From NCBI GenBank assembly GCA_008330645.1, contig VLTN01000035.1, forward strand, positions 124,001 through 188,000: 64,000 nt of DNA, given 5' to 3'. Under the pieces are notes generated by a model. It was given only the letters and a program-made list of their open reading frames with translations. It made no database searches and was not told the origin of the DNA. Each line of letters opens with the position of its first letter. Position 1 is the first letter of the stretch. The DNA comes from Cafeteria roenbergensis (lineage: Eukaryota > Sar > Bigyra > Bicosoecida > Cafeteriaceae). Position numbers and translations under genes: made by a program. Shown piece after piece: positions 37,501 through 64,000 of this stretch.

Positions 37501-40500
37501 TAGCCAGAATCACCAGCTGCGTCGACTGCCCCGTCGGCCGGTACCAGCCCTTGCCCGGGTCCACCAACTGCTCAGACTGCGGGAAGGGCCTCTACACAAA
37601 CCTGCAAGGCAGCACGACTTGCGAGCGCTGTCCGGTCGGCGAGTTTCAGGCCGCCGAGGGCCAGGCCAACTGCCAGGCTTGCGCAGCAGGGACCTACCAG
37701 AACGAGCTCGGCCAGAGCGGTTGCAAGCTCTGCCCCGTGGGCACGGCAAACGATAAGACGCGTCAGGAGTTCTGCCAGCCGTGCTTCGGCTCCAACTACG
37801 AGTCAGAGGTCGGGTCAACCGCGTGCACCGCGTGCACCTCTTCTCTTGTGAACCGAAACGGCGTGTGGCGCTCGGCCAGAGTCAGCACGCCAGACCACTC
37901 CAGCGGGCTCACGAATTGCACTGCGTGCGTGACGGGCACCAACTGCAGCGGCTCCGTCGGGACGGGCGACTTTGCAGTGTCGTCAGACGGCTTCTTCTGG
38001 TGGCCGTACGTGGAAATCCGCACCCTGGACGACTTCGTGGACGCGATGGGAATCGCGACGCCGAACAGGCCGGATCCGGCGTCGGAGAGCCGTGACGTCC
38101 GCATCCACGAGTGCCCCAAGCCAGGGGCTTGCCAGACGGTGTTCGTCGGCCAGGGCCTCCCGAACCAGTCCACGACGTCTGCTCGGGCTTTGGCCGAGCT
38201 TGACGACGCAGAGCTCAGGCTCCTGCAGATGGGCTCGGACGACCTGGACGGCTGCCAGGAGACTCCCAAGCGGCTTTCGGACCAGTCGCTCACGCACGAC
38301 TTTTCGCCCGTCCCAGCAGGCTGCCCGCCTGCCGACAATGCCAGGAGGGTATGGGTGAACTGCACGGAAGGCTTCGAGGGCGTGCTGTGCTCCCGCTGCC
38401 GGTTCGGATACTTTTCAGCGGGTGAGGCGTGCAGCAAATGCGAGCCGTGGATGACGGGCGCCGGGTGGGTGATGACCTTCCTGGGCATGTTCGCGTTTTG
38501 CGGTTACTCGTGGACGCTCTTCAGCCGCGAGCTGGCTCAGGCCAAGGGTCCCGAAAAGAAGGACAGCTTCGCAGCGATCCTCAAGGTGATCATCAACTTC
38601 ATCACGATCACGACGGCGCTTGGCGAGTTTGCGAGCCGAGGTGCCGCCCTCTCGCGGGAGGTGCTGGAAAGCCTCAGCGTGCTGAACAGCGTGTCGGACG
38701 CGCCGGCGGGCGCTGGTGCGTCCACGTCCTCGCCGCTCGAGTGTGCCTTTGGCCTTCGGTTCTACACAACGTTTTACCTGTGGTTCGCGGCCCCGGGCAT
38801 CGTCGGGCTGCTCATCACCATCACCTTCATGGCGCGGTGGGCATTCAACCGGTTCTGGGTCTACCGTGACACGGTCAAGTACGACTGGAACTCGGACGAC
38901 GTGCCTCTCGAGTTCCGGCAGGGCATCTGCACCTCCTTCGTGAACAACGTGTCCAAGGCCATCAACGTGTTCGTTGTGGCATACTTCCTCATCTACATCA
39001 ACATCAGCACGAACATGCTTGCCAGCCAGCAGCTCACCTCCAACATTGACGGCTTCAAGTACGTGGTCACCGACTACTCCATCGTGGCGTTCAGGCCGGA
39101 CGCTCAGCGGCTGCCTGTCATCCCCACGGAGGAGTACGACGTGATGAACACCGTGTTCCTCCTGGGAATCGCGCTGTGGGTCACGGGCATCCCGCTCATC
39201 CTGTGCTTGTACTTGGGCTGCCTGAAGAACCGGCTCCTGGAGCCCGAGCAAGTCAGCAAGTGGCTCTTCTTGTACGACGGGTACGACCTGGGCCTTCAGT
39301 ACGGCACGTACGACGAGAAGCTCATGAACTCCGGCGTGTCCATCGCCCAGGGAATGATGATCAAGCTTGCCAAGCACACCAGCCTGGACAAGCAGCGTCG
39401 CTGGCGCCGCTCGTACGAAGTGGCGTCGAGCATGCGGCTGGCTGGCCTGGAGCCAGCTGTGGGGGGCACGGCGGCCGCGCCCGGCAAGGCCAAGTCCGCG
39501 GGCGCGCAGGCGGACAAGCGCAATGCCGTGGGCGCAGGTGGCGCTGGCAGCGACGGCGCGGCCAAGGCTGGCCACAGCGAGGCGGAATCGGGCAACACCG
39601 GGTGGTGGTGGCAGCGCGAGTCGCCCACGGATGCTGCGATCGACGATGTGTCGTGTCTCTCCTCTGGAAAGGTGGCCGAGTCTCGCGTGGACGAGGAGGT
39701 CATTCGTCGCTCCATCGCCCGGTCTCACTACCAGCTGGCCAAGTACGCCGAAAAGTACCGGGGACGCAACTTTTACTACTGGGAGTTCACGGTGCTGGCT
39801 CGAAAGATCATCGTGCTGCTCGTGTCCCAGGCCGGGTCCGGGCCCACGCAGTCCCTCATCAACTGCCTGGTGATGCTCCTCTTCCTCGTCACGCACGTGA
39901 TCGCCTCTCCGTACGACAGCGCCGACACTGACTTTGCCGAGTTCTTTGCCCTGGCGACGCTGGTGGTGCAGCAGTTCGGATCCCTCGCCCTGTACACGTT
40001 CGACGCCGAGAACGCTGCCCCCATCTTCCTGGGGATGAACGCCAGCACGATCCAAACCGTCGTCATCTTCTTCCTTATGGCCATCACGGCCTTGTGCTTC
40101 CTCCTCCTCCTGGTCATGGGCCTCTTCCACTTCCTTGTGGGCATGATCGCGCCCGTGAGAGCGCTCGCCGCGTCGGGCGGCGCGGGAGGGATCCCCAAGT
40201 CCTGCGCGTGGCCCTGCCTCGCTGCCCTGTGCTGTGAGGACCGCCGTGACCTTGCTCAGCGGATGAAGCACGACGAGGAGCGCATCCGGGTGTCCATCTT
40301 TTCGTCCTCGCGTCTTTGCTGTCGCTGCGACAACACGCCTCAGTGCCCGGCGTGGTGCCGGCTCTTCCACGCGTTCGACTTCTTCGGCTGCTGCCGCGTG
40401 TCCGTGGCCCAGGCCAAGTCTCGCTACGCCTCTCACGCCCCCGGGTCGAACGACCCCATGGCCAAGGTGTCGCTGCCGCTCTCCGCCTTCTCGCTGATGT

Positions 40501-41648
40501 TGGCGGAGTACATTCTGGACACGTCCTCGCCAGAGAAGTGGAGCAACAGCACGCGCAAGCACCGGATGAACATGCAGCAGCGGCTGCTGCGGCAGGTGGA
40601 CAACGAGCTCGAGGTGCTCGCTCGGAAGCTCAAGCCTCCGGCCGTCTTCGAGTTCAGCTCCACCGAGCTGCTGGACCGCCGCCGGCGCGCCTTTGAGATG
40701 ATCGCGCCGGACCACATTCCGCTGGCGGAGATGGACGACGAGGGCGCGCCAAGCAGCGACGAGGAGGGGGATGACGAGGGGGCCTCGGCTGCCAAGCCAA
40801 GCGGCGGCGCGGAGGCAGATGAGCGGGGCAAGGGCCACAAGAAGGCGGGCTCCAGCTGGACGCTTGCGAACTGGGGCAGGAGGGGCAACAAGGACAGCAA
40901 GGCCGACCCGACCGCGGCAGCGGCGGCGGCAGCGGCCGGCAGCTCTGCCGCTGCGGCTGCTGCGGCGGCTGCTGCTGTTGCGGCGGATGAACTGGCCGCC
41001 GAGAAGGCGGCGGGCCTGAGAAGGCTGGCAATGTCCACCAGCGAGGAGTCGGGCGATGAGGAGACGGACGTGCCCGCAGCTGCCGCAGGAGCGGGCCGGC
41101 GCTCTCACGGGTCGCGGCTGCGGAGCTCGCACGCGGCGGAGGCCGCCGGAGTTGGAGGCGACTGGGGCGATGCCGCGTGGCGGGTCGCGACGCCACGTGC
41201 TGCGGACAGGGCAGGCCCGGGTGAGGCCGCTGCCGCCATCGCCGTGCGACCCGCTGGCAGGCATGGCGGCCGCGGTGCCCCCGCGACTGCAACCGCGCCC
41301 GCGGCTCCGTCCGAGGCGGCGCCAGCTCCCCAGGCCCAGCCTGCAGTTTCGATCGCCGACGTGCAGGCCGAGTTCGCGATGCTGCAGGCCCAGCTCCGCA
41401 GTGACGACGCCAGCGAGGTCGGGCCGTCGGACAGGAGCGAGCGAGGATTCAGCACGTCGGCGCGGATGCCGCGGAGCGGCGGCAGAGGCGCCAGGGGCTC
41501 CAGGGTGCGAGCGCCTGCTGCGCCGGCCGGGGGGGGCGAGCTGGGCGACGCCCTCGCGGAAATGCGCGCGGCCATGGCCAAGCTCAAGCCAGCGGCGCCG
41601 CAGCCGCCCAGCGTCTCCGTGAGCGAGTCGGACAGCGACTCCGATTGA
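22511..41648 (+). CDS. Giant modular cell-surface protein with multi-pass membrane domain, 2 exons, one frameshift
   Basis: Exon 1 (22511-22928) encodes a signal peptide (MLAFRCSLALALLAAAMQTV) and 139 residues. A 146-nt intron (GTGAGA donor, CCGCAG acceptor) leads to exon 2 (23075-41648). A 2-bp excess at 27086-27093 shifts the frame; discounting it, the length is a whole number of codons, 6,329 residues. From N to C: many bacterial-Ig-like modules (motif like LDVVVTFESPVRRFFAARDL) with Ca-binding-type loops DxNxDGxV (24715, 26020, 28570, 29945, 33863) and many N-glycosylation sequons; a Ser/Thr/Pro mucin-like stretch (about 35550-35690); ten or so Cys-rich GCC2/GCC3 (ephrin-receptor-like) units (about 36370-38440); eight or nine membrane segments (38458-40150); and a cytoplasmic Ala/Ser-rich tail. 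It is probably a surface adhesion or sensory receptor; the ligand is unknown. Confidence 0.85.
25120..26394 (+). repeat. Giant-gene repeat unit 1 (1,275 bp, 425 codons)
   Basis: This is the first of three near-identical direct repeats inside the giant gene, beginning at the sequence for SIHEVPGSVGSTL. The unit includes an Ig-like module, the segment for NTTVYTVPLSTEFRTAA and a Ca-loop (EDANADGSVQSGE). It differs from unit 2 at only a few bases, for example the codons for SIG versus NG near 25158/26433 and D versus G near 25290/26565. Confidence 0.92.
26395..27671 (+). repeat. Giant-gene repeat unit 2 (1,277 bp, carries +2 bp)
   Basis: This unit is nearly identical to unit 1 over its full length, including silent sites. 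Its length is 1,277 rather than 1,275 because of one extra CG dinucleotide at 27086-27093. That difference breaks the reading frame of the gene. Confidence 0.92.
27086..27093 (+). other. Frameshift: (CG)4 where other repeat copies have (CG)3
   Basis: Units 1, 3 and 4 read ...GTGCTCGCGCGTGTGGG here, while unit 2 has an additional CG. Upstream the coding frame starts at positions equal to 1 modulo 3; downstream it is 0 modulo 3. As written, translation would terminate at 27115-27117 and give a secreted fragment of about 1,486 residues lacking the membrane domain. Confidence 0.9.
27672..28812 (+). repeat. Giant-gene repeat unit 3 (partial, about 1,141 bp)
   Basis: It matches units 1 and 2 from its start to the sequence for DRVWDLAVE, then switches to a different tail (ITELDNGLSRS...) instead of the RIANVDSLDN tail of units 1 and 2. 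The end of identity is sharp, as expected from recombination or gene conversion. Confidence 0.9.
28813..28930 (+). repeat. Alternative tail module, copy A
   Basis: About 118 bp encoding ITELDNGLSRSMTMLPGP and following residues. A second copy with a few substitutions lies at 30184-30299 behind unit 4. Confidence 0.85.
29482..30183 (+). repeat. Giant-gene repeat unit 4 (3' part only, about 700 bp)
   Basis: After about 550 bp of unique sequence (28931-29481), the last 700 bp of the repeat unit reappear, starting at the sequence for NTTVYTVPLSTEF. They are almost base-identical to unit 3, including the GAA codon in EDANADG shared with unit 3 rather than the GAG of units 1 and 2. Confidence 0.9.
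30184..30299 (+). repeat. Alternative tail module, copy B
   Basis: This is the second copy of the ITELDNGLSRS tail, following repeat unit 4. Beyond it the protein sequence becomes unique, with only distantly related modules to about 35550. Confidence 0.85.
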
Positions 41649-41897: not shown

Positions 41898-44800
41898 ATG
41901 GCCGATGCCTTGCCGTCCATGCACGGGTCCGACCCCGCGTTCGACCCGTCGATGGACTGGTGCCTGGTGCTCGTCGTTTGCGCCCTTGGAATCGCGCTTC
42001 TCGGAATTGCAGCGCTGGCAGCGGCGGCAGTCTACCGCACGGCTGTCCTGCCTGCCGTTGCGTTCGCCGGCGCGGTCCACGCAGCCATTGTGCACGGTGA
42101 CACGGATCAGCTTGCTGCTGTCATGACCTTGCTGGTGCTGGTGGGCGCTGTGTCGTGGGGGGCCTGGAAGCTTGCGCAGAGGTGCAGCTGGGATGACCCC
42201 GCCAAGGGCACCGCCGCGTCCTCTTGGTTCCCAGTTGCGCCGTTCTCTCAATTCAGGGAGTCTCCGCCGGCGCAGCCGGGGATCGTGGGGCTCACAAACC
42301 TGGGGAACACGTGCTACTTGAACGCCATTCTGCAAGTGAGTGGCCGGCTGCTTCCTTTGCTCCCGCCGGGCGCTGCAAGGCCGCTCCGCGCGCGGCGAGC
42401 AAGCCCAGTGGGCGGTCGGGCTAGCCCCGCCCAGCCGCCCAACCCTGCCGGGGCGCCCAGGCAAGCGAGGCCGCGCGGCCGCGGTGGCCGGGTGCGCGGG
42501 ATCTGGCCGGGGAGTGCTGCGAACGAACCGCAGCAGCATTGGCAGCCTGCCCGCAGCTCTCGGCTGCGCCGCGGCGACAGTGCCCCGCCTCACGCCCATC
42601 CGGTCGCATCGATGCCCGAGCCGCTGCGCTCCGACTGGCCTTGGTTCGCAGTGTGTCGCGCAAGAGCCGGGGCTGGTGAGGCTGCTGCTCGACGACGACT
42701 TGGAATCCCAGGTCAACGCTTCCAACCCGCTGGGGTGCCAGGGCGAGGTGGCTGCGGCCCTTGGCGGCCTGTTTCGCGAGTCGTGGTCGGGGAAGAGGAG
42801 CGTGGTGGACACGCGCGGGTTCCGCGACCGCGCCGGAAGATTCCGGCGCCAGCTCATGCTGCGCGAGCAGCAGGACTGCCACGAGCTGCTGCACTGGCTC
42901 CTGGACGCGGTGCACGAGGACCTCAACCGGGGAGACAACGTGCCGGGCGCCGCAGACGCTGAGTCCTTCTCCATGCGCTCGCGCAGCCCCGCGCTGACAA
43001 CCGGGCCCCTGCGAGCCGCTCGCTCGGGCCGGGCGGGCGCCGAAGCCGCGATTGCCAAGGCCCGCCGCGCGTGGGAGCAGCACCAGCGCGCAGACCGCTC
43101 CCCTGTCATGGACAGGTGGTGGTCCATGCTCGCGAACAGACTGCAATGCAAGGAGTGCGACGGCCTGTCGCTCTCCTTCGAGTCCTCCCTCTGCCACCCC
43201 GTGACTGTGCCTCCGGCCTTCCAGTCCGTCTTCGCCACCGTCATCAAGGAGGTCCGCCCCGCCGACGCCCTCCTCGCCCTTGCTCCCTGGTGGAAGGACC
43301 TGCTCGGAGAGGAGGACGCCGCCCGGGCGGCTCTGCCGTCCGTTGAGCGGGCCTCTCCCCCCGCCGGCCACCCCGCCTGCGCCGCAGCGGGAGTCTCCCC
43401 CGTCCACGTCGTCCACCTGCGGCTACCAGTGCGCGCCACGGTGGGGCAGGCGGTGCAGCAGCTGCGGTCCAGACTGGGGTTGCCCGAGCGGTCAGTTCGC
43501 CTGCTCGCCTGGCGGCGTCGGCCCTCGGGCAACCCCACTGCGGTTCAGGGCCAGGCCCTTGTGAGGGACGTGCCCGACATCATCGTGTCGGCGCACGCGC
43601 GCTGGCCCCGGCCCCGCTCGCCGGCCGGGCTGGCGTGGCAAGCCGCCAGGAAGGAGGCGGCCGCAGCTGCCGCCGCAGCTGATTCCGAGGGTGCTTCCGA
43701 GGGTGCTTCCGAGGGCGAGGTAGCCAGCAGCGGTGCTGCAGCTGCGGGCGCGCCTTGCGCCGCTGCTGGCGGGGACGCGGGCGCGACAAGCAGATTTGAC
43801 GTTGCCAGCGCAGACGATGAGCAGGCCGGGGCAGTGCTCTGGGTCCAGTCGCTGCGTCCGCGCATCGTGCCCCGCATGGACGTTCACGCGGCGGTGGAGC
43901 GCTGCTTTGCGGCGGAACGGGAGGCCACGTTCGATGACGTGTACCGGCTGGAGGAGGTGCTCGACGGCCTGCCGCTGCCGGTGTTCTGCCCGCTTGCGGC
44001 CACGCACGCAAGCTTCTTCTTCGTTGCGCTGGCATGGGCTCGCATGTGCTACGCTGCTAGGCCCAGCGAGGAGGCGGCGTCAGCGGCCCGCCCCGGCTGG
44101 CCGGTGTCCTTGCGGGGCGTTCCCATCGCAGCAGGCCCAGGCCCAGACGCGGCGCTGGCGCTCCCGGCGCGGCTGCCCACCCCCGTCACCCTCAACTCAA
44201 AGTGCCAGGAGGTCGGCCCTCTTGAGCCAGACTCAAGCCGGCCCGTGCTGGAGGTAGCTGACGGAGAGCTGCGCGCGAAGATGAGCGGCGCGGACTTGCG
44301 ATGGCTCGTGCCGCTGTGGACGGACGACGCGTCGGACGACGAGGCAATGGACGAGGCCGCCTGGACAGCCAGTGTTCGCGCCAAGGCTGAAGCAAGAATC
44401 GCCGAGGCTGCGATCGAGGTGGCGCGCGCTCACAGAGACGTCGGACTCGCCGCCCAGCAGTGGAAGCGTGCCCTGGACTCTGCAGAGGACACCTCCTCCC
44501 GTGCCCGTTCCGCTGCCTCTGCGCTTGCCGACGACGAGACGGCGACCGCGGCTGCCAAGGACAAGGCACTGGTGGCGCTGGACGCTGCCCACGAGGCCCT
44601 GGCCGCCATCCGTTCCCGGCCCATCACGGCGCCCGACCCGCGCAGGCTGCCTCACCTTCACGCCGACGCTCTGGTGAGGGACCCGCCCGTGTGCGCTCCC
44701 GGGCCCGAGATCGCGCTCACGCCCCCATTTGAGCTCGTGGAGCCCTCGCGCGAAGACAGCGAGGGCGAGGCGCGCCAACGCGGCTTCGAGAGCTCTGCCG

Positions 44801-45624
44801 CTATGCAGGAGTGGGAGGCGGCCGACGGGTCGAGGCCGGACCGCAGGGTGCCGCTGGAGTGCTGCCTGCGGCTGCTCACCACCCCCGAGACGCTGCCCCT
44901 CAGCCTGCAGTGGCGCTGCGAGGGGTGCAAGGCCCCTCGAGAGGCCACCAAGAGCCAGGCGTGGTGGAGCCTGCCCGACGTCCTGGTCCTGCCCCTGCAG
45001 CGATTCGAGCACCTGCCGACCGGGTTCATGCAGAAGAACAACACACCCATCGCCTACCCGCTCGCGCTGGATATGGCACCCTTCCTGGACCCAGACTCTC
45101 CCGACGCCGACAGCCCGGCTCGCTGCGAGTTCAGCCTCTTCGCCGTGGCATGTCACGCTGGCAGGCTGGGCAGCGGCCACTACACCGCGCTCGTGCGGTC
45201 GGCTCTCAACGGGTCGTGGTGGCGCGCCGATGACGGGAGCGTGATGGAGCTCAAGACCCTCGCGCAACACCACGGCCGCACGCCGGCCGCAGCCGCCAGA
45301 AGGGGGTCCGGCGGCCAAGCCGGGGAGCGGGACGGCGAGGAGGGCGAGCTCGCCCTCCTGGAGCTGGAGGAGCTTGTGCAGTCGCCCAGCGCCTACGTGC
45401 TCTTCTACTTGCGCACATCGGAACTCCCCAAGGCGAGCGAGGCCCTCCGCGCCAAGCTGGCAGAGATGGGCGTACAGAAGCTCACCGAGGCCCCGGTGCC
45501 CGCGGCGTCGCAGGAGCCGGAGGCCGAGCCGGGGTCGAAGGTGACCTCCCGACGCGCAGCGGGCCGGAGGCAGGGCGCCGCGCGAGCTGCGGCTGCGGTC
45601 GGGGGCGCGGAGGCCACTGCCTAG
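41898..45624 (+). CDS. Membrane-anchored ubiquitin-specific protease (USP, C19), 2 exons
   Basis: USPs cleave ubiquitin from proteins. The exons are 41898-42335 and 42652-45624. The 316-nt intron (GTGAGT donor, TCGCAG acceptor) falls inside the Cys box, and the product is 1,136 residues. Two or three hydrophobic segments occupy about residues 20-100 (WCLVLVVCALGIALLGIAAL; AAVMTLLVLVGAVSWGAW), so the enzyme should be membrane-anchored. The Cys box is GLTNLGNTCYLNAILQ (Cys139). Other catalytic-core features are QQDCHELLHWLLD, a zinc-finger pair (CKECDG and CEGCKAPREATK) and the His box GSGHYTALVR (His989) followed by WWRADDGSV. A ubiquitin-like insert (VHVVHLRLPVRATVGQAVQQ) and an Ala-rich coiled coil split the catalytic core, as in the USP4/11/15 group. 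The membrane anchor recalls USP30, but overall the core looks nearer USP4/15. Confidence 0.92.
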
Positions 45625-53700: not shown

Positions 53701-56700
53701 TCACAGCAGCCCGTCGGCTTGCCAACGCTGCAGCATCGTCCTGGCCGCGGCCTCCCACGTCAGCGACTCCGCCGCGCGCTTACGGAGCTGCCGCCGAATC
53801 GCATCCATCTGCGGCGAAGCCTCGCTCCGCAGCGAGCGGATGACAGCGTCCCCAAAGGCGGCCGAAAAGTTAAACGACTCAAAGTACGGCGGCCCGACCG
53901 CGCTCCACGCAGCGGCGGCCTCGGGCTCCGGCCGCACGGCGCCCCCAGCGTCCACGAGAGTCGCAAGGTGCGCGGGCAGGGGCGGCCCGAGGTCGACGTC
54001 GCCCACCAGCTCCGGAAGCACCGACTCCGGGAAGCGGCTCGTGATGGGCAGCGCGCCCAGCGCCATGGCCTTGACAAGAGCGATGCACCCCGTCTCCCGA
54101 AAGGCCGTGGGGTAGGCAAAGAAGGACGCTCGCCTGTAGGCCGTTGCGAGATCGGCAGAGCTGACCATGCCGCGGAGCGTGATGCCGGGCTGGTCGAGCA
54201 TCTGCTTGGTCTGCGCGATCCACTGGCCCGCCGCCTCCTCCCCCATCAGGGCCTGGATGTACGCGTGGAAGCCCCGCGTGAAGCCGTAGAACACCTCGAG
54301 GCGCGCGTGCGGGATGGCAGCGCGGATGCGCGGCCACTGGTGGAGCAGCACGCGCAGCCCGCGGTTGGGCGCTGAGGCGTAGATGACGAGACCGGGCTCC
54401 CGCCGCACTGGCTCCGCAGGGTTCTCCAGGGTCGTCGCTGCCCCGTTGCGCACCACTTGGAACATGTCCGGGATCGCCGTCTCGCCGCCCGACGTCGAGC
54501 TGTGATACGACGAGATTGCAAACACGCCCGTGAACAGAGCGCACGCCTGACGCGCCAAGACGGCCTGGGCAGGAGCCAGCGAGTCGTGGAGCCAGGCATA
54601 CACCCCGCCAAGGCGACCGCCCGTCGCGGCCGCCAGGGCAGCAGCTCGGTCACCCCCGGTCGTGCTAGCAAGCTCGCCGTGAGTTTGCGCAAGGCGCCGA
54701 GCAGCGTCCCGCACCTGAGCTGGCCCAACCAGCATGCCCACGCTCACGGGGTACCGCCACAACACGGCGATGGTCCGGCCGCGCCCGCCAGGGGGCCACT
54801 CCTGCTGCGGGTCGAGCCACGCGGTGGGGTACCACACCGCCCCCGCACTGGCTCGCCCTCGGTGCTCGGGCGGCACCACCGCCTTGTACACCTCTACGTG
54901 AACGCACATGCGGTCTCCGTGCCGCCGGCAGAGCGCCTCCAGGGCGACAATGACCTGCGAGGCTGCCTCCTCGCTGCCCCCCACCGGCTGGTCGAACCAG
55001 GGCCCCCAGTTCTCGAACCAGCCCTGCCCGAACTCCTCAGCGACAAGCACGACCGTGGGGCGGTCGGTGGGGCGAGGCACGAACCGCCGGTCGGCGAGGG
55101 GCACCACCGCGTCGTCGCCCTTGAGCGCCGAGGCCTGGGCGCCCCGCCAGTACCCCACGGCCACAGCCTGCATCAGTCGGGCGTATGTTGCTGCGGAAAC
55201 CCAGTCCACTTCGCCGCTGGCGCCCTTGTACCGCGACCGCCACGCAACCGTCAGCGATGCTTCCAGGCTGTTGGCCGCGTAGAGTAGCTTCGTCGGGCCG
55301 GTCAGCGCCAGCTCGGCGCTGACTCCCCTGTCGGTCACGCCCGGCGCGACCGCCTGCACTGTCGATGGCGACAGAGCTGCCAGCGCCAGGCCTGCCTGGA
55401 CTTGACAGAGCACGGCTGCGGCGGTGGCCTGGGCCACCCGGTGTTGGTCCTGCGCGACCCTGGCCAGCACCAGCTCCGAGAGCGAGCTCAGGAGCTCCAG
55501 AAGCGACACTGCGGTCACGCGCACGTCCTCGCTACGCGCCAGCTCGGAAAGGGCGCTGCGCACCTCCCTTGCAGTGGGGGCCAGCAGCCCTGCGCCCTGC
55601 TCTGCGACGCGCGCTGCAAGCGTCGCCGTGACAACGGCAACGGCCTCGGCGTCCAGGTCCGCGGCCGACAGGAGCGCTCGCGAAGCCAGCCCGTCGCGCG
55701 CAGGAGCGACGAAGAGCACCCCCATCCCCGAGAGCTTGCGCTGAACGCCTGCGAGCTGGCGGCTTGACCCCCCGGCCGCCGACGCGGGATCCCCCGACTG
55801 CGCCAGGTCTTGCTCCAGCACCTGGCGGCGCATCGCGTCGGCCGCCCGCGCGATCACATCGGCAGCGCGACGGCTGTCCACCAGGCTGCCCGCAACCTGG
55901 AGCGCCGACAGCGCGCAGTGGGCCGCGGAGGGGTGCTCCGCCTCCTGCGACACGACAAGCACTGCCGGCCGCTCGTCCAGCTGCATCTGCGCGTCGGCGA
56001 GTGCTTTCGCTGCCAAGTCCCGCAGCTTGCGGGTGCCTTGTGCCAGCCAAGTCAGCGCCGAGGCGCGCAGGGCGGCGTGCTCGGCCTGCAGCATGGCAAG
56101 CGTCACCCGCCAGCCGGTGCGCGTCCCGCTGGGCGGCTGCGGCGCAAACGCGTGCTCGCCGCAGCCGCTGCTGCTGCAGGGAACCCAAGCGCTGGACCCA
56201 GCTGCGGAGGAGCCCTTGTGCGCGCCCATGACAGCCCTTACGCCTGGGAGCAGTGGCTTGCCGCCGTGCTCCTCCGCCGCCGCTCGCTCGGGGTCCTCCA
56301 CGTTGCTCAATACCGCGGCCGTGTCCCACAGCCCCACGCCCACGTCCCGCACCCAGAATTGCGCCGCGCCTTCGCGGCCCGGCGCTGCGGGGCCCCCAGC
56401 GCCGTCGGGTGCAGAGAGACGCACCTGCAGCGCGCTGCAAGTCAGGCACCTGCTGATAGCCTCCAACTGGCCTCCGTCGGCGGCACCGGCGGGCGATGTC
56501 CAGACGTCCCCAGCGCTCCGCACCAGCCGCTCCGGGTCGAGCAGCGTCACGATGAGGGCCGACGCGCTGCTCGACCGCAGCTGCGCCTCCCACCGGTGCG
56601 GACCCCCAGCCGCGGTGGTGTCCCCCGCCGCAAAGACGCCAGCCGCTGACGGCGCCTGCTCTGCCCCGTCCCACGATGCCGCGACTAGCGTCGCCGCCCG

Positions 56701-59700
56701 CCGCGTGTGCCACAGCTCCGCCGCTGCCCAGACGACTCCGTGGAGCCAGGAGCTCAGCGCATGGCGGATCGGGGCGGCGGCTGCCGAGATGGCCCAGCGG
56801 TTGACGAGCGAGCGAGCGGCCTCGATGTTGTAGCTTGCCCCCCCCCTCATGCTGTCGCCGGCAACGGGAGGCACGCTGCAGGGGGCTGCCGGGACGCTTC
56901 CAGGGTCGCGAAGCCCCAGACGCTCGCCCCGCAGCGCCGCGGCAAGAAACCTTGAAGCAGCGTTGGAGGCCGACGCCACAGGCACCCGAATCGGCCCCGC
57001 GATGCCGGAGCTGGCGGACCCCATGGGTGCGGGGGAGCCAACTCTGTGGGCCATCTCCGCCGCGTCGCACTCCATCGACCAGCCGATCGCGTGCCGGTAG
57101 GCCGCCCGCGCCAACAGCGAGACTCTGTCCAGACCCGCGGCGTGCTGCTGGGCGTCGGCCTCTCGGCCGCGCAGCGGCGGGAGCACGATGTGGAACGGGA
57201 GCCAGCCGCCTGGCTGCACTGAAGCTGCAGGCGCCACTGTCCTAGGCCCCGCGCCGGTTGCCGATGCAGCGGGCGGGGCACTCACGCGGCCGCATGCGGG
57301 CGCGACGGCGCGGCGAGAGTGGGATCCGAACGCCCCGCGCACTTGAGCGCGCCGCACGTCCGTGGCTGCGCGGTACCCGCGCTCGATGGCTTGCGTGGTC
57401 CCGGACGAATCGTGCAGCGGTGAGTACGCGGACGCGCGTGCAAGCCTCCGGCGGAGCTGCCACAGGGACTCGGGCCGAGCGACCAGCCGGGTCACAGCCT
57501 CCTGCATTGCACGCGCCGAGTCGTGCACGAGCGTGGCAGACACGGTCTCCAGCAGCGTTTCGCCAAAGCTGGACGGCATGCCACTGGCCGCGGCGCGCAG
57601 GAGCGACGCGCCAACTCTGGCCTCGAACCGCTGGCCTCGCGTCGTGGCGATGGGAATGCCCACAGCGAGCACCTCGGCGGCCGTGGAGTGCGCGTTGTAG
57701 CTGCTGGAGTCCAGCACCAGGTCCAGCATGCCCACGCGAGAGACGTGGGCGGCCCGCGCGGCGCCCGGGACGCACAGCACTCGCCAAGGCGGCACACCTT
57801 GCGCCCCCATCACGGCACGCACAGCCTTGCAGCGCTGGGAGCCAACGCTGCATCCGAGCACGGCCAGCCTCGAGTCGGGCCGAGACCGACGAAGCACGCC
57901 CGCCCACGCCTGAAGGTCGGTGAGGAGCGTGCGGGCAGAGGACCCGATTGTGCCCAGGATGACGCCGTCCTCCGGCACGCCCCAGTGCCTGCGCAGCCAT
58001 CGCACGCAAGGGCCGTTGCGAACAAGGCACGCCGCCACGGAGAGCGGTTTCTCGTGGACCTGGTACACGTGCGGGAGGACGATCAGGCCCTCAGTGGCCA
58101 CGTTTGCAGGGTGCGGGACGCTGGACCATCGCCCCATTGTCTGGCCTGCGGCGGGAAGCGACTCCATGGCCTTGCTTGCCCACACTAGCTGCGCGGCGGG
58201 CCTTGCGGCAGCAGACGCCCGAATGCTTGCGGCACTGCGGCGGGCCTCCTCCAGCCTGGCGGCGCAGCCGGGCGGCAGCAGCTGCTCCAGCGCCGCAGAG
58301 CCGTTGCAGTGGCGAAGGGCCGTTGCCAGTGGGTAGTCAGCACGGAGAAGTGCAGAGGCTCGCAGCAACGCCGCCGGCTTCCCGCTGGCACACGCCTCCC
58401 GCACAGCCCTGGCGCCGGCCCGTGCTGAGGCGTGCATGTAGAGGCGCTCGGGGGGCAGCACCACGGTGTCTGACACCATGTAGTCGCTGTAGGCCGTGCC
58501 GGTCGTGCCCGGGAACCCAAGGTACTGCACGTTGACCGGCGCAGGCCGCTGCTTGCGCAGCTCGTTCCGGACCTCCGTCGTGTAGCCCATGAGGTCAACG
58601 AACACCTCCGACCCAGCCGCGGCAACGGTGCGCAGTGCAGCCTGGGCCTGGGCCCCCGGGAGCCCTGCCGCCGGACCCACGCTGAGGCCGCCGCTAGCTG
58701 GCTTGCCGAGCGCCTCCACCACCGCGTCGTCCGACACAGTTGCCGGCATGACGTGAGTCGGCGGGGAAGAGGCGTCCACAGGGTCGCCCGCGAATGTGAG
58801 CTCCGTGGAGCCGAACTTGGCCCCGCTCGCCTCGCAAGACGGCGCCGCCTCCCAGCTCCAGGCCAGCAGGGTGGACGACAGCGACCCCTTCGCCATGCCC
58901 TCGTGACCCTTGTGGCCTATGAGCGCGGAGAAGGGGCAATAGTCAGGCTGCGGCGCCGCCAGGTTCGGATAGGGCTTGTCCATTGTCACAGCGCCCGTCT
59001 GCTCCGTCGCGGCGCCAGCGACTTGCAGGGCAGCATCCCCAGGAGGCGGAGCCGGGAGCGCCCTCTCGTGGCGCAGCGGCGCCCTGAACTCAGCCGCCAG
59101 CACAATCTCCTCCGCCCCGTGGTCGACTGGCTCGGCCATGACGACGCCGCGCGAGGCAGGCGCGTGCACCAAGGAGTCGGTGCAGCGCGCTCCCACGCCC
59201 GTGGTGGTCACCCAAGGCTTGCCCCGGTCCATTGCGCACTGCTCTTCCATCGAGCTTGTTGGGCTGCGGCCGGACCCGCGAGCAGCCAAACCGAATCGCG
59301 TCGCCAGGCTTGCTCGCCAGCGCCTGGCCGCCGCCATCGTGCTGCCTTCGAGCCCCTGGCTCCAGCTGGCCGGCTCCCCGTTGCTAACCCCGGCGCTCTG
59401 CAGCCTGGCAGCAGCGCCAAGCAGAGACAGCTCCGTGCCCAGGCCAGGCACGATCGCGTCGAAGCTTGCGTTTTGCCGGCACGCTCTGCGGCGATCTTCC
59501 AGCAGCTGCATGAGGCGGTGCGTCAAGCCCCCCCTCCAATCGGCCAGCGACCCTGGTGCAGCCGCAAAATACCCGCCGATCCTGGCGAACGGGCTGCCTC
59601 CCATGCTCAGCTGGCCGGTCGAAGTCTCCGTCTCCGTGCCAGCCCGAGAAGTCTGCCACGGCAGCACGCCGTTCGAGGTCATCCCCCACCTCATCGGTGC

Positions 59701-61125
59701 GTTTGGGGGCCCGTAGAACACCACGATCGCCTCCACCCGGTCCCTCCGATGCGCTGCTGTGACCGCCGCCGTCATGAACCCCATCGGGTGCTGCCGGAGG
59801 TCGTAGGTGGCGTAGGCCACTCGCAGAGGGCTGTCTGGCCCCGCTGTCGCTCCCGATGTCGTGGATCGCAACCCGGGCCCACGTGAGTGCAAGCCCCGGG
59901 TGGCTTGCCTCAGGGATGGCGGCGCATCGGGTTGCCGCTGCCGCGCAACGGGAAAGCGCGTTCGAACGTCCCGGCGCTCGAGGGAAAAGCCACCTGAGAT
60001 GAGCAGTCGGAGCTGCTCGGCCGAGAGCACCGGGCCAAGCATCATGGAGTCGAACGTGATGATACCGGTCAAACCGGCCAGCATCTCAAGCGGGCCCCAC
60101 TCTCGGCCCTTGGCATTCGCGAGCAGCTCCGAAGCCGCATGCTGGGACACGGCAGGAGCGTCCCCGGTCGCCAGAGCCTTCTGCCACAAGCGGGCCACGT
60201 GCGCAGAGTGCTCGTCCTCTAGAGCCACACGGCCCAGGCTGAGCTGGTTGCGCAAGAACCGAGCCAGCAGGTTTGAGCGGGTGAGCGACAAGGGCTCTGC
60301 TCGCGCCTCCTTCTCTGCAAAGGCCACGGCCAAGTCCGCAAGCTCGGGTGACGATGCCGCCAACGCAAAGAGGGCAAGCATGTTGCGCCTGGCAGCCGTG
60401 TAGTCGGCCGGGTGAGGGTTTGGCATGGCGAGAATTCGGTCGAGCTGCTCCTTGGCCTCGTTCAGCCGGCCCACGTTCAGCAGCGCGATGGACAAGTCGC
60501 ACGCGAGCGTGCTTGAGTCGGGCCACTGCGCGACGGCACCCTGCAGCACCCTGGCAGCGCGGTCCCACTGCTGGCGGTTCAGCAGCGACTTGGCCAGCGC
60601 GACCCGCGCGCTGAGGCTATCTGGCATCAGCGCAACCGCCTCTTCGCACTCCGCGATGGCGCGAGCGGCGTCGGCGGTTGTTGCATCCGTCGCGTCCTGG
60701 CAGACAAACACGCAGTGGAACGTCAGAGCGACCCCAAGCCCCGTGCTTGAGCGCGGGCTCGCCGCGCGCTCAAGCATCACACCCTCGGCGAGCAGGCGCC
60801 CCTTCTCGGAGTCAACGAGCTCGCCTTGCCCAGCGTCTGCGAGGAACCCCGCCAGCGCAAGCCGGGCGGGGTACATGCGCGGCATCTGGCGGAGCACGCG
60901 CCACAGGCCGGCCGAGCGCGCTGGCGATGCCTTGTCCAGCACAACCGCCGCGTTGTACACCGTGGCCGCAGCATGCGCTCCCGGGAGGTCTTTCCACCAG
61001 TCCATGGACCCGTCATCAAACAGCGCTGCGCCGCTCGTGCTTGCCGCGCACGCAAGTATCGCAAGCCACAGGCGAGAAACAACGCCCGACCCCAAACGAG
61101 CCGCTGCCCGACGCTGACTGGGCAT
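53701..61125 (-). CDS. Secretory TPR + GT41 (OGT-like) + GT4-like double glycosyltransferase
   Basis: One exon encodes 2,474 residues from the Met at 61125, which opens a signal peptide or anchor (GSGVVSRLWLAILACAASTS). The frame is open to 61281, but that extension is Arg-rich and would mask the signal. TPR-like helices cover about 70-340 (LSARVALAKSLLNRQQWDRA). A GT41 domain follows at about 430-1260: LRVAYATYDLRQHP, VFVDLMGYTTEVRNELRKQR, VQYLGFPGTTGTAYSDY and YNAHSTAAEVLAVGIPIATT, the blocks that define O-GlcNAc transferase/SPINDLY enzymes. After about 700 residues of Ala-rich sequence comes a GT4-type GT-B domain (about 2020-2474): GGSEEAASQVIVALEAL, YASAPNRGLRVLLHQWPRI, YPTAFRETGCIALVKAMALG and PITSRFPESVLPELVG. 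Known OGT/SPINDLY enzymes act in cytosol and nucleus, so the signal peptide is odd. It probably glycosylates secretory-pathway proteins. Confidence 0.88.
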   Translation of the reverse strand: MPSQRRAAARLGSGVVSRLWLAILACAASTSGAALFDDGSMDWWKDLPGAHAAATVYNAAVVLDKASPARSAGLWRVLRQMPRMYPARLALAGFLADAGQGELVDSEKGRLLAEGVMLERAASPRSSTGLGVALTFHCVFVCQDATDATTADAARAIAECEEAVALMPDSLSARVALAKSLLNRQQWDRAARVLQGAVAQWPDSSTLACDLSIALLNVGRLNEAKEQLDRILAMPNPHPADYTAARRNMLALFALAASSPELADLAVAFAEKEARAEPLSLTRSNLLARFLRNQLSLGRVALEDEHSAHVARLWQKALATGDAPAVSQHAASELLANAKGREWGPLEMLAGLTGIITFDSMMLGPVLSAEQLRLLISGGFSLERRDVRTRFPVARQRQPDAPPSLRQATRGLHSRGPGLRSTTSGATAGPDSPLRVAYATYDLRQHPMGFMTAAVTAAHRRDRVEAIVVFYGPPNAPMRWGMTSNGVLPWQTSRAGTETETSTGQLSMGGSPFARIGGYFAAAPGSLADWRGGLTHRLMQLLEDRRRACRQNASFDAIVPGLGTELSLLGAAARLQSAGVSNGEPASWSQGLEGSTMAAARRWRASLATRFGLAARGSGRSPTSSMEEQCAMDRGKPWVTTTGVGARCTDSLVHAPASRGVVMAEPVDHGAEEIVLAAEFRAPLRHERALPAPPPGDAALQVAGAATEQTGAVTMDKPYPNLAAPQPDYCPFSALIGHKGHEGMAKGSLSSTLLAWSWEAAPSCEASGAKFGSTELTFAGDPVDASSPPTHVMPATVSDDAVVEALGKPASGGLSVGPAAGLPGAQAQAALRTVAAAGSEVFVDLMGYTTEVRNELRKQRPAPVNVQYLGFPGTTGTAYSDYMVSDTVVLPPERLYMHASARAGARAVREACASGKPAALLRASALLRADYPLATALRHCNGSAALEQLLPPGCAARLEEARRSAASIRASAAARPAAQLVWASKAMESLPAAGQTMGRWSSVPHPANVATEGLIVLPHVYQVHEKPLSVAACLVRNGPCVRWLRRHWGVPEDGVILGTIGSSARTLLTDLQAWAGVLRRSRPDSRLAVLGCSVGSQRCKAVRAVMGAQGVPPWRVLCVPGAARAAHVSRVGMLDLVLDSSSYNAHSTAAEVLAVGIPIATTRGQRFEARVGASLLRAAASGMPSSFGETLLETVSATLVHDSARAMQEAVTRLVARPESLWQLRRRLARASAYSPLHDSSGTTQAIERGYRAATDVRRAQVRGAFGSHSRRAVAPACGRVSAPPAASATGAGPRTVAPAASVQPGGWLPFHIVLPPLRGREADAQQHAAGLDRVSLLARAAYRHAIGWSMECDAAEMAHRVGSPAPMGSASSGIAGPIRVPVASASNAASRFLAAALRGERLGLRDPGSVPAAPCSVPPVAGDSMRGGASYNIEAARSLVNRWAISAAAAPIRHALSSWLHGVVWAAAELWHTRRAATLVAASWDGAEQAPSAAGVFAAGDTTAAGGPHRWEAQLRSSSASALIVTLLDPERLVRSAGDVWTSPAGAADGGQLEAISRCLTCSALQVRLSAPDGAGGPAAPGREGAAQFWVRDVGVGLWDTAAVLSNVEDPERAAAEEHGGKPLLPGVRAVMGAHKGSSAAGSSAWVPCSSSGCGEHAFAPQPPSGTRTGWRVTLAMLQAEHAALRASALTWLAQGTRKLRDLAAKALADAQMQLDERPAVLVVSQEAEHPSAAHCALSALQVAGSLVDSRRAADVIARAADAMRRQVLEQDLAQSGDPASAAGGSSRQLAGVQRKLSGMGVLFVAPARDGLASRALLSAADLDAEAVAVVTATLAARVAEQGAGLLAPTAREVRSALSELARSEDVRVTAVSLLELLSSLSELVLARVAQDQHRVAQATAAAVLCQVQAGLALAALSPSTVQAVAPGVTDRGVSAELALTGPTKLLYAANSLEASLTVAWRSRYKGASGEVDWVSAATYARLMQAVAVGYWRGAQASALKGDDAVVPLADRRFVPRPTDRPTVVLVAEEFGQGWFENWGPWFDQPVGGSEEAASQVIVALEALCRRHGDRMCVHVEVYKAVVPPEHRGRASAGAVWYPTAWLDPQQEWPPGGRGRTIAVLWRYPVSVGMLVGPAQVRDAARRLAQTHGELASTTGGDRAAALAAATGGRLGGVYAWLHDSLAPAQAVLARQACALFTGVFAISSYHSSTSGGETAIPDMFQVVRNGAATTLENPAEPVRREPGLVIYASAPNRGLRVLLHQWPRIRAAIPHARLEVFYGFTRGFHAYIQALMGEEAAGQWIAQTKQMLDQPGITLRGMVSSADLATAYRRASFFAYPTAFRETGCIALVKAMALGALPITSRFPESVLPELVGDVDLGPPLPAHLATLVDAGGAVRPEPEAAAAWSAVGPPYFESFNFSAAFGDAVIRSLRSEASPQMDAIRRQLRKRAAESLTWEAAARTMLQRWQADGLL

Positions 61126-61490: not shown

Positions 61491-63242
61491 CTACGTAGCG
61501 GTTGCAATCGGAGGGGGGCGCTTGCCAACCCCTGTTCCGGGCCGCCGGGCTCCTTTCACGGCGGGCAATGCTCCCGCCTTGGAAGCAGCCGAGCAGGAGG
61601 TCGCTTTCTCCGCCTCCAGCTCAGCCTTGCGCTTGCGCCACTCTGCGGCCCGAGCAAAAACGGCGTCGCGCTTCGCACGTCGCCTCTTCTCCTCCTTGTG
61701 CATGGCCTTGGTCCACTCGAGTGGCAGGTGGGAGTCCTTGCTCAGCAGCATCTGCTCCAGGTGAATGTTGTTCTTCTGCAGCACCGACGCTGTCGCTGAA
61801 ACCTCGACGTTCGCCCTCCCAAACAGCCCTCCAACGTTTGTGGTGTCCGGGTGCTCTTGCAGGAACTTGACGATGCGGTTGCGGTCGAGGTGGCCCTCGT
61901 GGTCAGGGTCGATCTCGGAGAGCACCCGCGACACAAAGTACTTGCAAATGTCTTTGAAGTAGTCGCTTGCGGTCTCGTCGGTGAGGCGCATGGAGGCGAG
62001 GAAGTAGTGCATCATCTCCTCGTCTTCGATTGTCCCGCCGCCGTCGTCGTCGTACACGTCGAAGAGGAAGCTTGCACGGGTCATGGGAGTGCCATGCTCG
62101 AGTTTGGTCAGCGCCAGGAGGAACTCCTGCCACTCAATGATGCCCGACCCGTCCTCGTCGAGCAGCGAGAAGACGCGCTCCACAAACTCTCGGTCCTCCA
62201 TACTGAGCATCGGGATGCCGCGCAAGAACGCAGTCTTGTCAACGCCTTCGATCGAGTGAGACATCGCGACGAGCGCCTTGAACTGCATGAACATGGCATA
62301 CAGCTCGCGTCGCGAAAAGCCGGTTTCCCTGATCAAATTGACAACGTAGTTCTCGTCAGGGTGCTTGGGGTCCGTGCCGAACAAGAGGGCGCCATGAATG
62401 CCCGACACAGCGACGGCGCGGTGGAATTGCCTGTCGCCGGCTCCTCCCCTCCGTTGGCTGGCTTTGGTCTGCTTGACGACGCTCACCGCCTCGGCTGCCG
62501 CATGCTGTCGCGACCGCGCCGTTGCCACGGAGGCGCGCGCTGTGCCCCTGGCCGTGGTCGCCGAGCCAGAGTCCGCCCGCGCAGTCAGCGGCGCTCCAGG
62601 CCTGGCGGAGGAATGGGATGTGGACGGCAAGCGGGGTGCCGCCGCTGCTGCTGCTCGTAGGCTCCTTGTTGGAAGCCATGGTGGGCTGCCTCCGGGCGCA
62701 GAGCACTCCCTGGAGTGCGCTGACAGCGGGGCGTCATCAGCCCTGCTGGAGGCCGCCTGGCTGCCTGGGCCAAGGTTCGTCGTTGTCAGGGCCGCCAGCT
62801 GCACGATGGAACGGCGCCGCCCTCGAGCAAACTGCTTCATGGACTCGATGGAGCCTCCCCCGTCTTGGCCTTTGCGGCGACGCCGTCCGGTTCGAGATGC
62901 TGCTTGCTGCCGCATGGCCGAGAGCGCCTTTTCAGTGGCCTCTGGGCTTCCCCAGCGCGCGTGCAGCCTCGATCTGATCCGCTTAGCAGCCCCCTCGGGG
63001 CGGGGCGGCGACGGGCTGCGGGAGTACGCCGCTCCCCGTCCCGCGCCTCCAGCTGAAACCCGTGGCAGCTCGGCCGGGAGTCCAGCCGCATCCGCGCTCG
63101 CGCCACCGCCGAGCGGCCGCGCACTCAGACTCCCAGCCGACCGCGAAGTTGGAAGGGGCGCCCGCGGGGGGCGCGGTGCTCCGCTGGCCGACTGAGTGTG
63201 GCGAGAGCCAGTCCCCCACCCCCTGGAGCGCCCCTGCGCCAT
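61491..63242 (-). CDS. EF-hand calcium-binding protein with disordered N-terminus
   Basis: From the Met at 63242 the product is 583 residues; the start is uncertain. The C-terminal half is well ordered and resembles EFCAB/calcineurin-B-like proteins: RETGFSRRELYAMFMQFKAL, then three EF loops, DEDGSGIIEWQEF (about 360), DDDGGGTIEDEEM (about 394) and DPDHEGHLDRNRI (about 442). The first two loops have standard Ca ligands. A charged helical tail (MHKEEKRRRAKRDAVFARAA) follows. The N-terminal 300 residues are Ala/Arg/Ser/Pro-rich disorder. The frame stays open upstream to ATG codons at 63602/63605 and beyond, but those overlap the plus-strand exon at 63567, and a CCGCAG acceptor-like site (about 63591-63596) hints at an upstream spliced exon instead. 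The role is probably Ca sensing; partner unknown. Confidence 0.78.
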   Translation of the reverse strand: MAQGRSRGWGTGSRHTQSASGAPRPPRAPLPTSRSAGSLSARPLGGGASADAAGLPAELPRVSAGGAGRGAAYSRSPSPPRPEGAAKRIRSRLHARWGSPEATEKALSAMRQQAASRTGRRRRKGQDGGGSIESMKQFARGRRRSIVQLAALTTTNLGPGSQAASSRADDAPLSAHSRECSAPGGSPPWLPTRSLRAAAAAAPRLPSTSHSSARPGAPLTARADSGSATTARGTARASVATARSRQHAAAEAVSVVKQTKASQRRGGAGDRQFHRAVAVSGIHGALLFGTDPKHPDENYVVNLIRETGFSRRELYAMFMQFKALVAMSHSIEGVDKTAFLRGIPMLSMEDREFVERVFSLLDEDGSGIIEWQEFLLALTKLEHGTPMTRASFLFDVYDDDGGGTIEDEEMMHYFLASMRLTDETASDYFKDICKYFVSRVLSEIDPDHEGHLDRNRIVKFLQEHPDTTNVGGLFGRANVEVSATASVLQKNNIHLEQMLLSKDSHLPLEWTKAMHKEEKRRRAKRDAVFARAAEWRKRKAELEAEKATSCSAASKAGALPAVKGARRPGTGVGKRPPPIATAT

Positions 63243-63566
63243 TCGCGGCGGGGAGTGCGCCGCACCAGCAGCCGCTGGCGCCCGGGGCTGGGCAGCGGCG
63301 CACGCAGCTTGCCTCACTTTCGGGCGGCTGGCCCTGGCCTGGTCGGGCGAGGGGGGCGTGGCTTCCCGCGCGGCACCGGTCCACGGAGTGCGCAACCGCG
63401 CGGTCGCTGCTGGCTGTGTGGCTGGCCGGCGAGGCAGAGCCGCAACGGCCCGGTGGGTCGCGCTGCCGGCGGCTGACTCGCCCACCGGGCGGCCGCCGCA
63501 GGCCCCTTCCGAGAGCACCGGCGCCGGAAACGGCACTGGCGTGGCTGCGGTGCTGCGGACGGCGGC

Positions 63567-63718
63567 ATGGACCAGCAGCGAGTGCCGCCCCTGCGGATTC
63601 ATCATATGCACGCGTCGGGGATGTCCGCAGCCGACGGCTCCGAGTCCCCGGCGCTGTGGCTGCCCAGCAACGTGCCCCGGAAGGACCTGCTGCGAGACAA
63701 GATCCGGGCCAAGCTGCG
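63567..63718 (+). CDS. Partial gene: first exon running off the window
   Basis: This ATG-led exon (MDQQRVPPLRIHHMHASGMS, ending SNVPRKDLLRDKIRAKLR) runs 50 codons plus two bases to a good donor, GTGAGC at 63719. That fits the habit here of a short first exon followed by a GTGAG intron. Downstream exons lie outside or near the window edge; none is recognisable by 64000. Alternative starts are the internal ATGs at about 63606 and 63621. I recognise no family. It overlaps a possible 5' extension of the minus-strand EF-hand gene, and only one of the two can be right. Confidence 0.45.
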
Positions 63719-64000
63719 GTGAGCGCGTGCTGCGATGGTCTGGCCTTTGCCCAGCGCGGGCGGCTTGGCCCGCAAGCCAACGCCTCCGCGACATTCCCGG
63801 CGCCCAGTGCCAACCCGCACGACGCATGCTGTCGCGGCCCGAACCGACAACACGCAGAGCGGTTGACGAAGCCGTGCTGCGGGACACAGCGGCTCGGCGG
63901 GCGGCCAGACGGCGCAAGGCCAACGGCCGAACAGCTGCCAGCTTGCCAGCAAGCCCTCCAAGGCAAGGGGCAGCAGCCAGCGGTGCTCACCCCGAGCTCC

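Follow-up and report, generated by a model that had tools for sequence, protein, structure and literature searches.

A Predicted Secretory-Pathway Protein of Cafeteria roenbergensis with a TPR-GT41 Region and a GT4-Type Domain in One Open Frame

Organisation of the Locus

Cafeteria roenbergensis is a marine flagellate that feeds on bacteria. The window (the whole stretch of 64,000 nucleotides that was analysed, with a GC content of about 70%) contains one very long open frame on its reverse strand. The frame encodes, behind a signal-like N-terminus, a TPR region, a GT41 domain that is interrupted by two inserts, a long middle region and a C-terminal GT4-type domain. In each of the two glycosyltransferase domains, a key residue is changed. 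The positions of these features are listed in Table 1.

An EF-hand protein (window positions 61491-63923, reverse strand) lies directly upstream on the same strand. Elsewhere in the window, a frame of 5,002 codons (26640-41648, forward strand) carries five Ephrin_rec_like stretches and perhaps encodes a giant surface protein, and a Peptidase_M14 (zinc carboxypeptidase) domain is found in a frame of 1,675 residues (12380-17407, forward strand).

Table 1. Features of the two-glycosyltransferase frame, in window coordinates.
Feature	Position	Strand	Residues and remarks
Whole open frame	53701..61125	-	2,474 codons and a stop; first in-frame ATG at 61125
Signal-peptide-like N-terminus	61027..61125	-	about 1-33; scored against null methionines
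TPR region	60328..60681	-	about 149-266; Pfam
GT41 piece 1	59701..59886	-	414-475; holds HP-loop His446
Insert 1 in GT41	58654..59700	-	476-824, 349 residues
GT41 piece 2	58444..58653	-	825-894
Insert 2 in GT41	58117..58443	-	895-1003, about 110 residues
GT41 piece 3, nucleotide-binding lobe	57364..58116	-	1004-1254
Arg1065 at the catalytic Lys position	57931..57933	-	alignments
Middle region	55099..57345	-	1261-2009; coding by codon usage
GT4-type domain	53704..55098	-	2010-2474, 465 residues
EX7E position	54070..54096	-	Glu2344 retained; second Glu replaced by Lys2352

The Open Frame and Its Coding Signal

A scan of the frame revealed no stop within its 7.4 kb. The remaining five frames across the same positions contain between 18 and 43 stops each, and the longest opening among them is 569 codons. 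The coding signal was then compared by codon log-odds, with other long frames of the C. roenbergensis genome (36,303,456 bases in 167 contigs) as the training set. From residue 21 to the C-terminus, the frame was the best of the six in 47 of 48 scan windows, including every one between the GT41 and GT4 domains, although the scan is a guide rather than proof, since the training frames are unannotated and some of them are GT41 paralogues. The sole scan window in which another frame scored higher covers residues 571-670. Together with the lack of stops, this bears out an earlier sequence-only reading of the window, which had described one unbroken frame of 2,474 residues.

The same reading had named an upstream start, which would remove the signal peptide, as an outcome that would refute it. 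It was found that ATG 61125 is the first in-frame ATG past the preceding stop and that the log-odds are negative in both scan windows beginning upstream of it. An exon upstream of this ATG may exist.

The TPR Region and the GT41 Domain

The TPR region was recognised by TPR_19 (PF14559) at 5e-10, and the GT41 domain by PF13844 at 6.4e-26 (91.1 bits against a cut-off of 25, in two stretches). Both profiles score above their Pfam cut-offs, and the TPR and GT41 core that had been proposed from the letters of the window was thereby confirmed. The best match by sequence to a solved structure was Drosophila OGT (5a01, 1.8e-23), while SPINDLY matched more weakly, at about 3e-9. The PHROGs profiles gave no match for the GT41 region. 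A purpose-built profile of five GT41 sequences was used to lay out the domain in its three pieces.

The coding signal is low around residues 521-670, so that an in-frame intron is possible in the first insert. The UCH domain of a neighbouring frame (window 42340-45624, forward strand) is spread over about 920 residues, much like the GT41 domain. It may be that the genome often carries big inserts within conserved domains, or that these are in-frame introns. Another explanation is that the frame holds in-frame introns or two neighbouring genes, and that the protein is shorter or split; this is considered rather improbable. The genes of C. roenbergensis have 1.67-1.89 introns on average, according to excerpts of PMC6972860, and the dispersed UCH domain is in line with such an explanation, as is the weak coding signal near residues 321-470, 521-670 and 1221-1320. 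However, codon usage favours the frame almost throughout, including the whole stretch between the two glycosyltransferase domains, and the lack of a stop argues for a single chain as well.

The residues of the active site were compared by aligning 13 GT41 sequences. The HP-loop His, which we take to be His498 of human OGT and His495 of SPINDLY, was invariant in all 13 and corresponds to His446 in this protein. The active-site His of the C-lobe is also retained (His1146), and the loop that follows it is changed conservatively, from Thr to Ser and from Asp to Glu. The catalytic Lys, presumably Lys842 of human OGT, is found in all 12 other sequences and is replaced by Arg1065 here. The number 842 agrees with the offset that places human Cys917 (named in PMC9715652) on Tyr1143. 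In a wider set of 19 sequences, Lys was found in 17, the exceptions being this protein and a poorly aligned paralogue on contig 20. Loss of the catalytic Lys is therefore nearly private to this protein among the GT41 set examined. According to excerpts of PMC9715652, SPINDLY loses its activity when Lys665 is mutated, and His495 mutants are inactive. The natural exchange of the catalytic Lys is well suited to a clean test of which residues a GT41 enzyme cannot do without.

The Middle Region and the GT4-Type Domain

No profile of Pfam or NCBIfam matched the middle region, and a search of the genome found no further copy of it; the idea of a third enzyme in this region was dropped on that account. 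For the C-terminal 465 residues, PF13692 scored above its cut-off (34.5 bits against 27, 2.9e-8) and PF00534 below it (19.9 bits against 26.4, 5.6e-4). The second domain had been called GT4-type in the sequence-only reading, and the PF13692 match agrees with this. A profile of 42 GT4 sequences (this protein and 41 relatives) matched D-inositol 3-phosphate glycosyltransferase, PimA and glycogen synthases including GlgA; the match is by sequence only, and the matched solved enzymes are retaining and of the GT-B type. Single-sequence searches with the domain found no relative among solved structures, where just a chance antibody match appeared, and no relative in the viral contigs. One weak glycosyltransferase match (1e-4) was obtained from PHROGs.

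The EX7E motif is a hallmark of the GT4 family. Of 97 frames of relatives, 74 have a readable motif, and 58 of these carry Lys in place of its second Glu, a count in which one of the two search patterns required Lys. The 14 motif-readable frames that came from the pattern without this requirement alone, some of which are near-duplicates, comprise eight with Lys, three with Glu and three with Asp. The frequency of Lys among the relatives makes EX7K a trait of a GT4 subfamily. EX7K had also been considered as a sign of decay of the GT4 domain, which was dropped because the motif is common to the relatives.

The sequence-only reading had further held that both sets of motifs are intact. This is contradicted by Arg1065 in the GT41 domain and by Lys2352 in the GT4 domain, and with a key residue altered in each, one or both domains may no longer work. 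The loss of the catalytic Lys also raises a serious rival, in which the GT41 domain is a pseudoenzyme, the TPR and GT41 regions form a lumenal scaffold that binds acceptors, and the GT4 domain alone transfers sugar. This is a possibility to be kept in mind, though an unlikely one. The interruption of the GT41 core by two large inserts fits such a scaffold, and the GT4 domain may still work, since EX7K is common in its relatives. On the other hand, the charge is retained in the change from Lys to Arg, as are both active-site His positions, and the loop after His1146 is changed conservatively.

Relatives of the GT4-Type Domain

The relatives of the GT4 domain came from 10 plasmid records, 16 phage records, 77 IMG/VR loci and five bacterial genome loci. 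The phage record MW202524, for example, shows 35.6% identity to the domain over 41% of the query. Eight large relatives were scanned for other domains: all eight gave a GT4-type match, six a GT2 match, six TPRs and five a methyltransferase. A GT41 domain was absent from all eight. In two of three plasmid GT4 frames scanned, a GT17 domain was found in the same frame.

The neighbourhoods of these genes were also compared. In nine of the ten plasmid records, the GT4 relative and a TPR-GT41 gene are no more than about 6 kb apart; the Streptosporangium record has none within 6 kb on either side. All nine paired records belong to Azospirillaceae (Azospirillum and Niveispirillum) and hence represent few independent events. 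Among nine viral GT41 loci, one has a GT4 relative adjoining GT41. The flanks examined around the 77 viral and five genome GT4 loci contained no GT41. The adjacency in Azospirillaceae lends some indirect support to the idea of a first sugar followed by its extension, whereas the viral and genome loci do not.

On the plasmid of Azospirillum ramasamyi, positions 71594-95941 hold a cluster of a TPR-GT41 gene, two GT4 genes, GDP-fucose synthase, GDP-mannose dehydratases and type I secretion genes. This region looks like a glycosylation island.

The N-Terminus and the GT41-like Paralogues

The N-terminus consists of a basic n-region, a hydrophobic core starting at residue 19 and then small residues. 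It was scored by a simple hydrophobicity measure, with 308 internal methionines from long frames of the genome as the null. Only six of the 308 equalled or beat the score of the core (residues 19-27). The proposal that a signal peptide precedes the TPR-GT41 part is supported in so far as the N-terminus is signal-like, and the protein probably enters the secretory pathway.

The GT41 profile gave 12 matches at eight loci of the genome. A signal-like N-terminus was found at seven of the eight, this protein included, with between 2 and 25 of the 308 null methionines reaching the same score or a better one. In six of the seven, scoring began at the frame's first ATG; in the frame on contig 11, it began at the third. 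The combined p for the seven is 5.9e-6 and rises to 0.0016 when the choice of start is penalised threefold; it treats the paralogues as independent, which may not hold. The canonical OGT on contig 24 is without a signal-like N-terminus, although the start used there is possibly not the true one.

The six further frames with signal-like N-termini, on contigs 6, 11, 16, 35, 47 and 20, are divergent and GT41-like. Three of them (contig 16, contig 20 and the frame at 116 kb of contig 35) have GT41 scores near the Pfam cut-off, which they passed in one scan and missed in another. In a GT41 tree, the divergent frames of contigs 16, 35, 47 and 20 form one group with a support of 100; support is weak (56-73) where the two-glycosyltransferase protein joins, and the tree was used solely to see how the remaining divergent frames group.

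The six other divergent frames have no PF00534 or PF13692 match among those listed, and a second copy of the GT4 domain was not found in the genome. Among the GT41 loci found, the fusion is therefore a single case. Other large GT4 frames were considered as GT41 fusions, and none was seen in the four that were tested of 19 PF00534 matches. One of these four, which was examined with roughly a hundred residues missing from its start, resembles starch synthases.

A cytosolic enzyme without a signal peptide is the explanation to which the least weight is given, and it seems quite improbable. In Ala-rich proteins, hydrophobic stretches are common, as the six internal methionines illustrate. The OGT and SPINDLY of eukaryotes are moreover nucleocytoplasmic, as stated in excerpts of PMC9715652. 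Against this stand the recurrence of a signal-like N-terminus in all seven divergent GT41-like frames, this one included, and a coding signal that begins at ATG 61125.

The sequence-only reading had gone further and described the known GT41 enzymes of eukaryotes as cytosolic or nuclear. This holds for OGT and SPINDLY, but as a general rule it goes too far, since predicted secreted GT41s have been tabulated in oomycetes and in Guillardia theta. The oomycete table, in the available part of PMC4316629, gives three for Saprolegnia parasitica, two for Achlya hypogyna and one each for Phytophthora ramorum and P. sojae, and none for the remaining seven species. In the corresponding part of PMC6260743, eight of 60 GT41s of G. 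theta are marked as secreted, compared with none of 88 in Goniomonas avonlea. Brown algae possess about ten GT41 genes on average (excerpt of PMC11468063), and O-GlcNAc was reported on secreted odorant-binding proteins of the pig (PMC4257092). Among the open-licence papers listed, no title or abstract describes a GT41 enzyme that is secreted or a fusion of GT41 with GT4. A term search in the text of two papers on flagellate gene expression (PMC10268365 and PMC7852580) returned nothing on GT41.

Interpretation

Taken together, these results are best explained by one very large protein of the secretory pathway, in which the TPR-GT41 part would, if active, glycosylate protein acceptors and the GT4-type domain would add further sugar. 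A probability of roughly 0.4 is assigned to this explanation. The N-terminal signal would direct the protein of 2,474 residues into the ER. There, the TPRs and the OGT-like GT41 domain would bind protein acceptors and, if the domain is active, glycosylate them. The C-terminal domain, which is related to the C-terminal domains of modular glycosyltransferases of bacteria and phages, may transfer an additional sugar, either to that glycoprotein or to a different acceptor. It is plausible that GT41 adds the first sugar and GT4 extends it. This two-step glycan mechanism is the best-supported reading, although we infer entry into the ER, both activities, the donors and which of the two transfers comes first.

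A more specific version is that a lumenal GT41 family in this free-living stramenopile starts a protein-linked glycan, and that in the present member this glycan is extended, within the same chain, by a GT4 domain that resembles those of phages or bacteria and was perhaps acquired horizontally. This version is regarded as doubtful. If the lumenal site and the activity are true, OGT-type chemistry would extend beyond the cytosol and nucleus, and GT41 would be another route by which protists make glycans on surface or secreted proteins.

Comparison with Known Systems

Like OGT and SPINDLY (CAZy GT41), the protein has TPRs ahead of its GT41 catalytic domain and retains the His of the HP loop and that of the C-lobe. 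It differs from them in its signal-like N-terminus, the two large inserts, the GT4-type domain and the Arg in place of the catalytic Lys. Tyr1143 stands at the position of human Cys917, which resembles Tyr744 of SPINDLY.

The modular GT2-TPR-(methyltransferase)-GT4 proteins of bacteria and phages carry, at their C-terminus or close to it, a GT4 domain that belongs to the same subfamily, often with EX7K. However, these proteins are of prokaryotic or viral-contig origin, and those scanned carry GT2 in six of eight cases instead of GT41. The Azospirillum and Niveispirillum plasmids hold the same two families as close neighbours, yet as separate genes. LARGE and EXT1/EXT2 are lumenal eukaryotic proteins with two glycosyltransferase domains, which belong to other CAZy families and are not known to have TPRs. 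They can be likened to the present protein in that two glycosyltransferase domains are combined in one chain of the secretory pathway.
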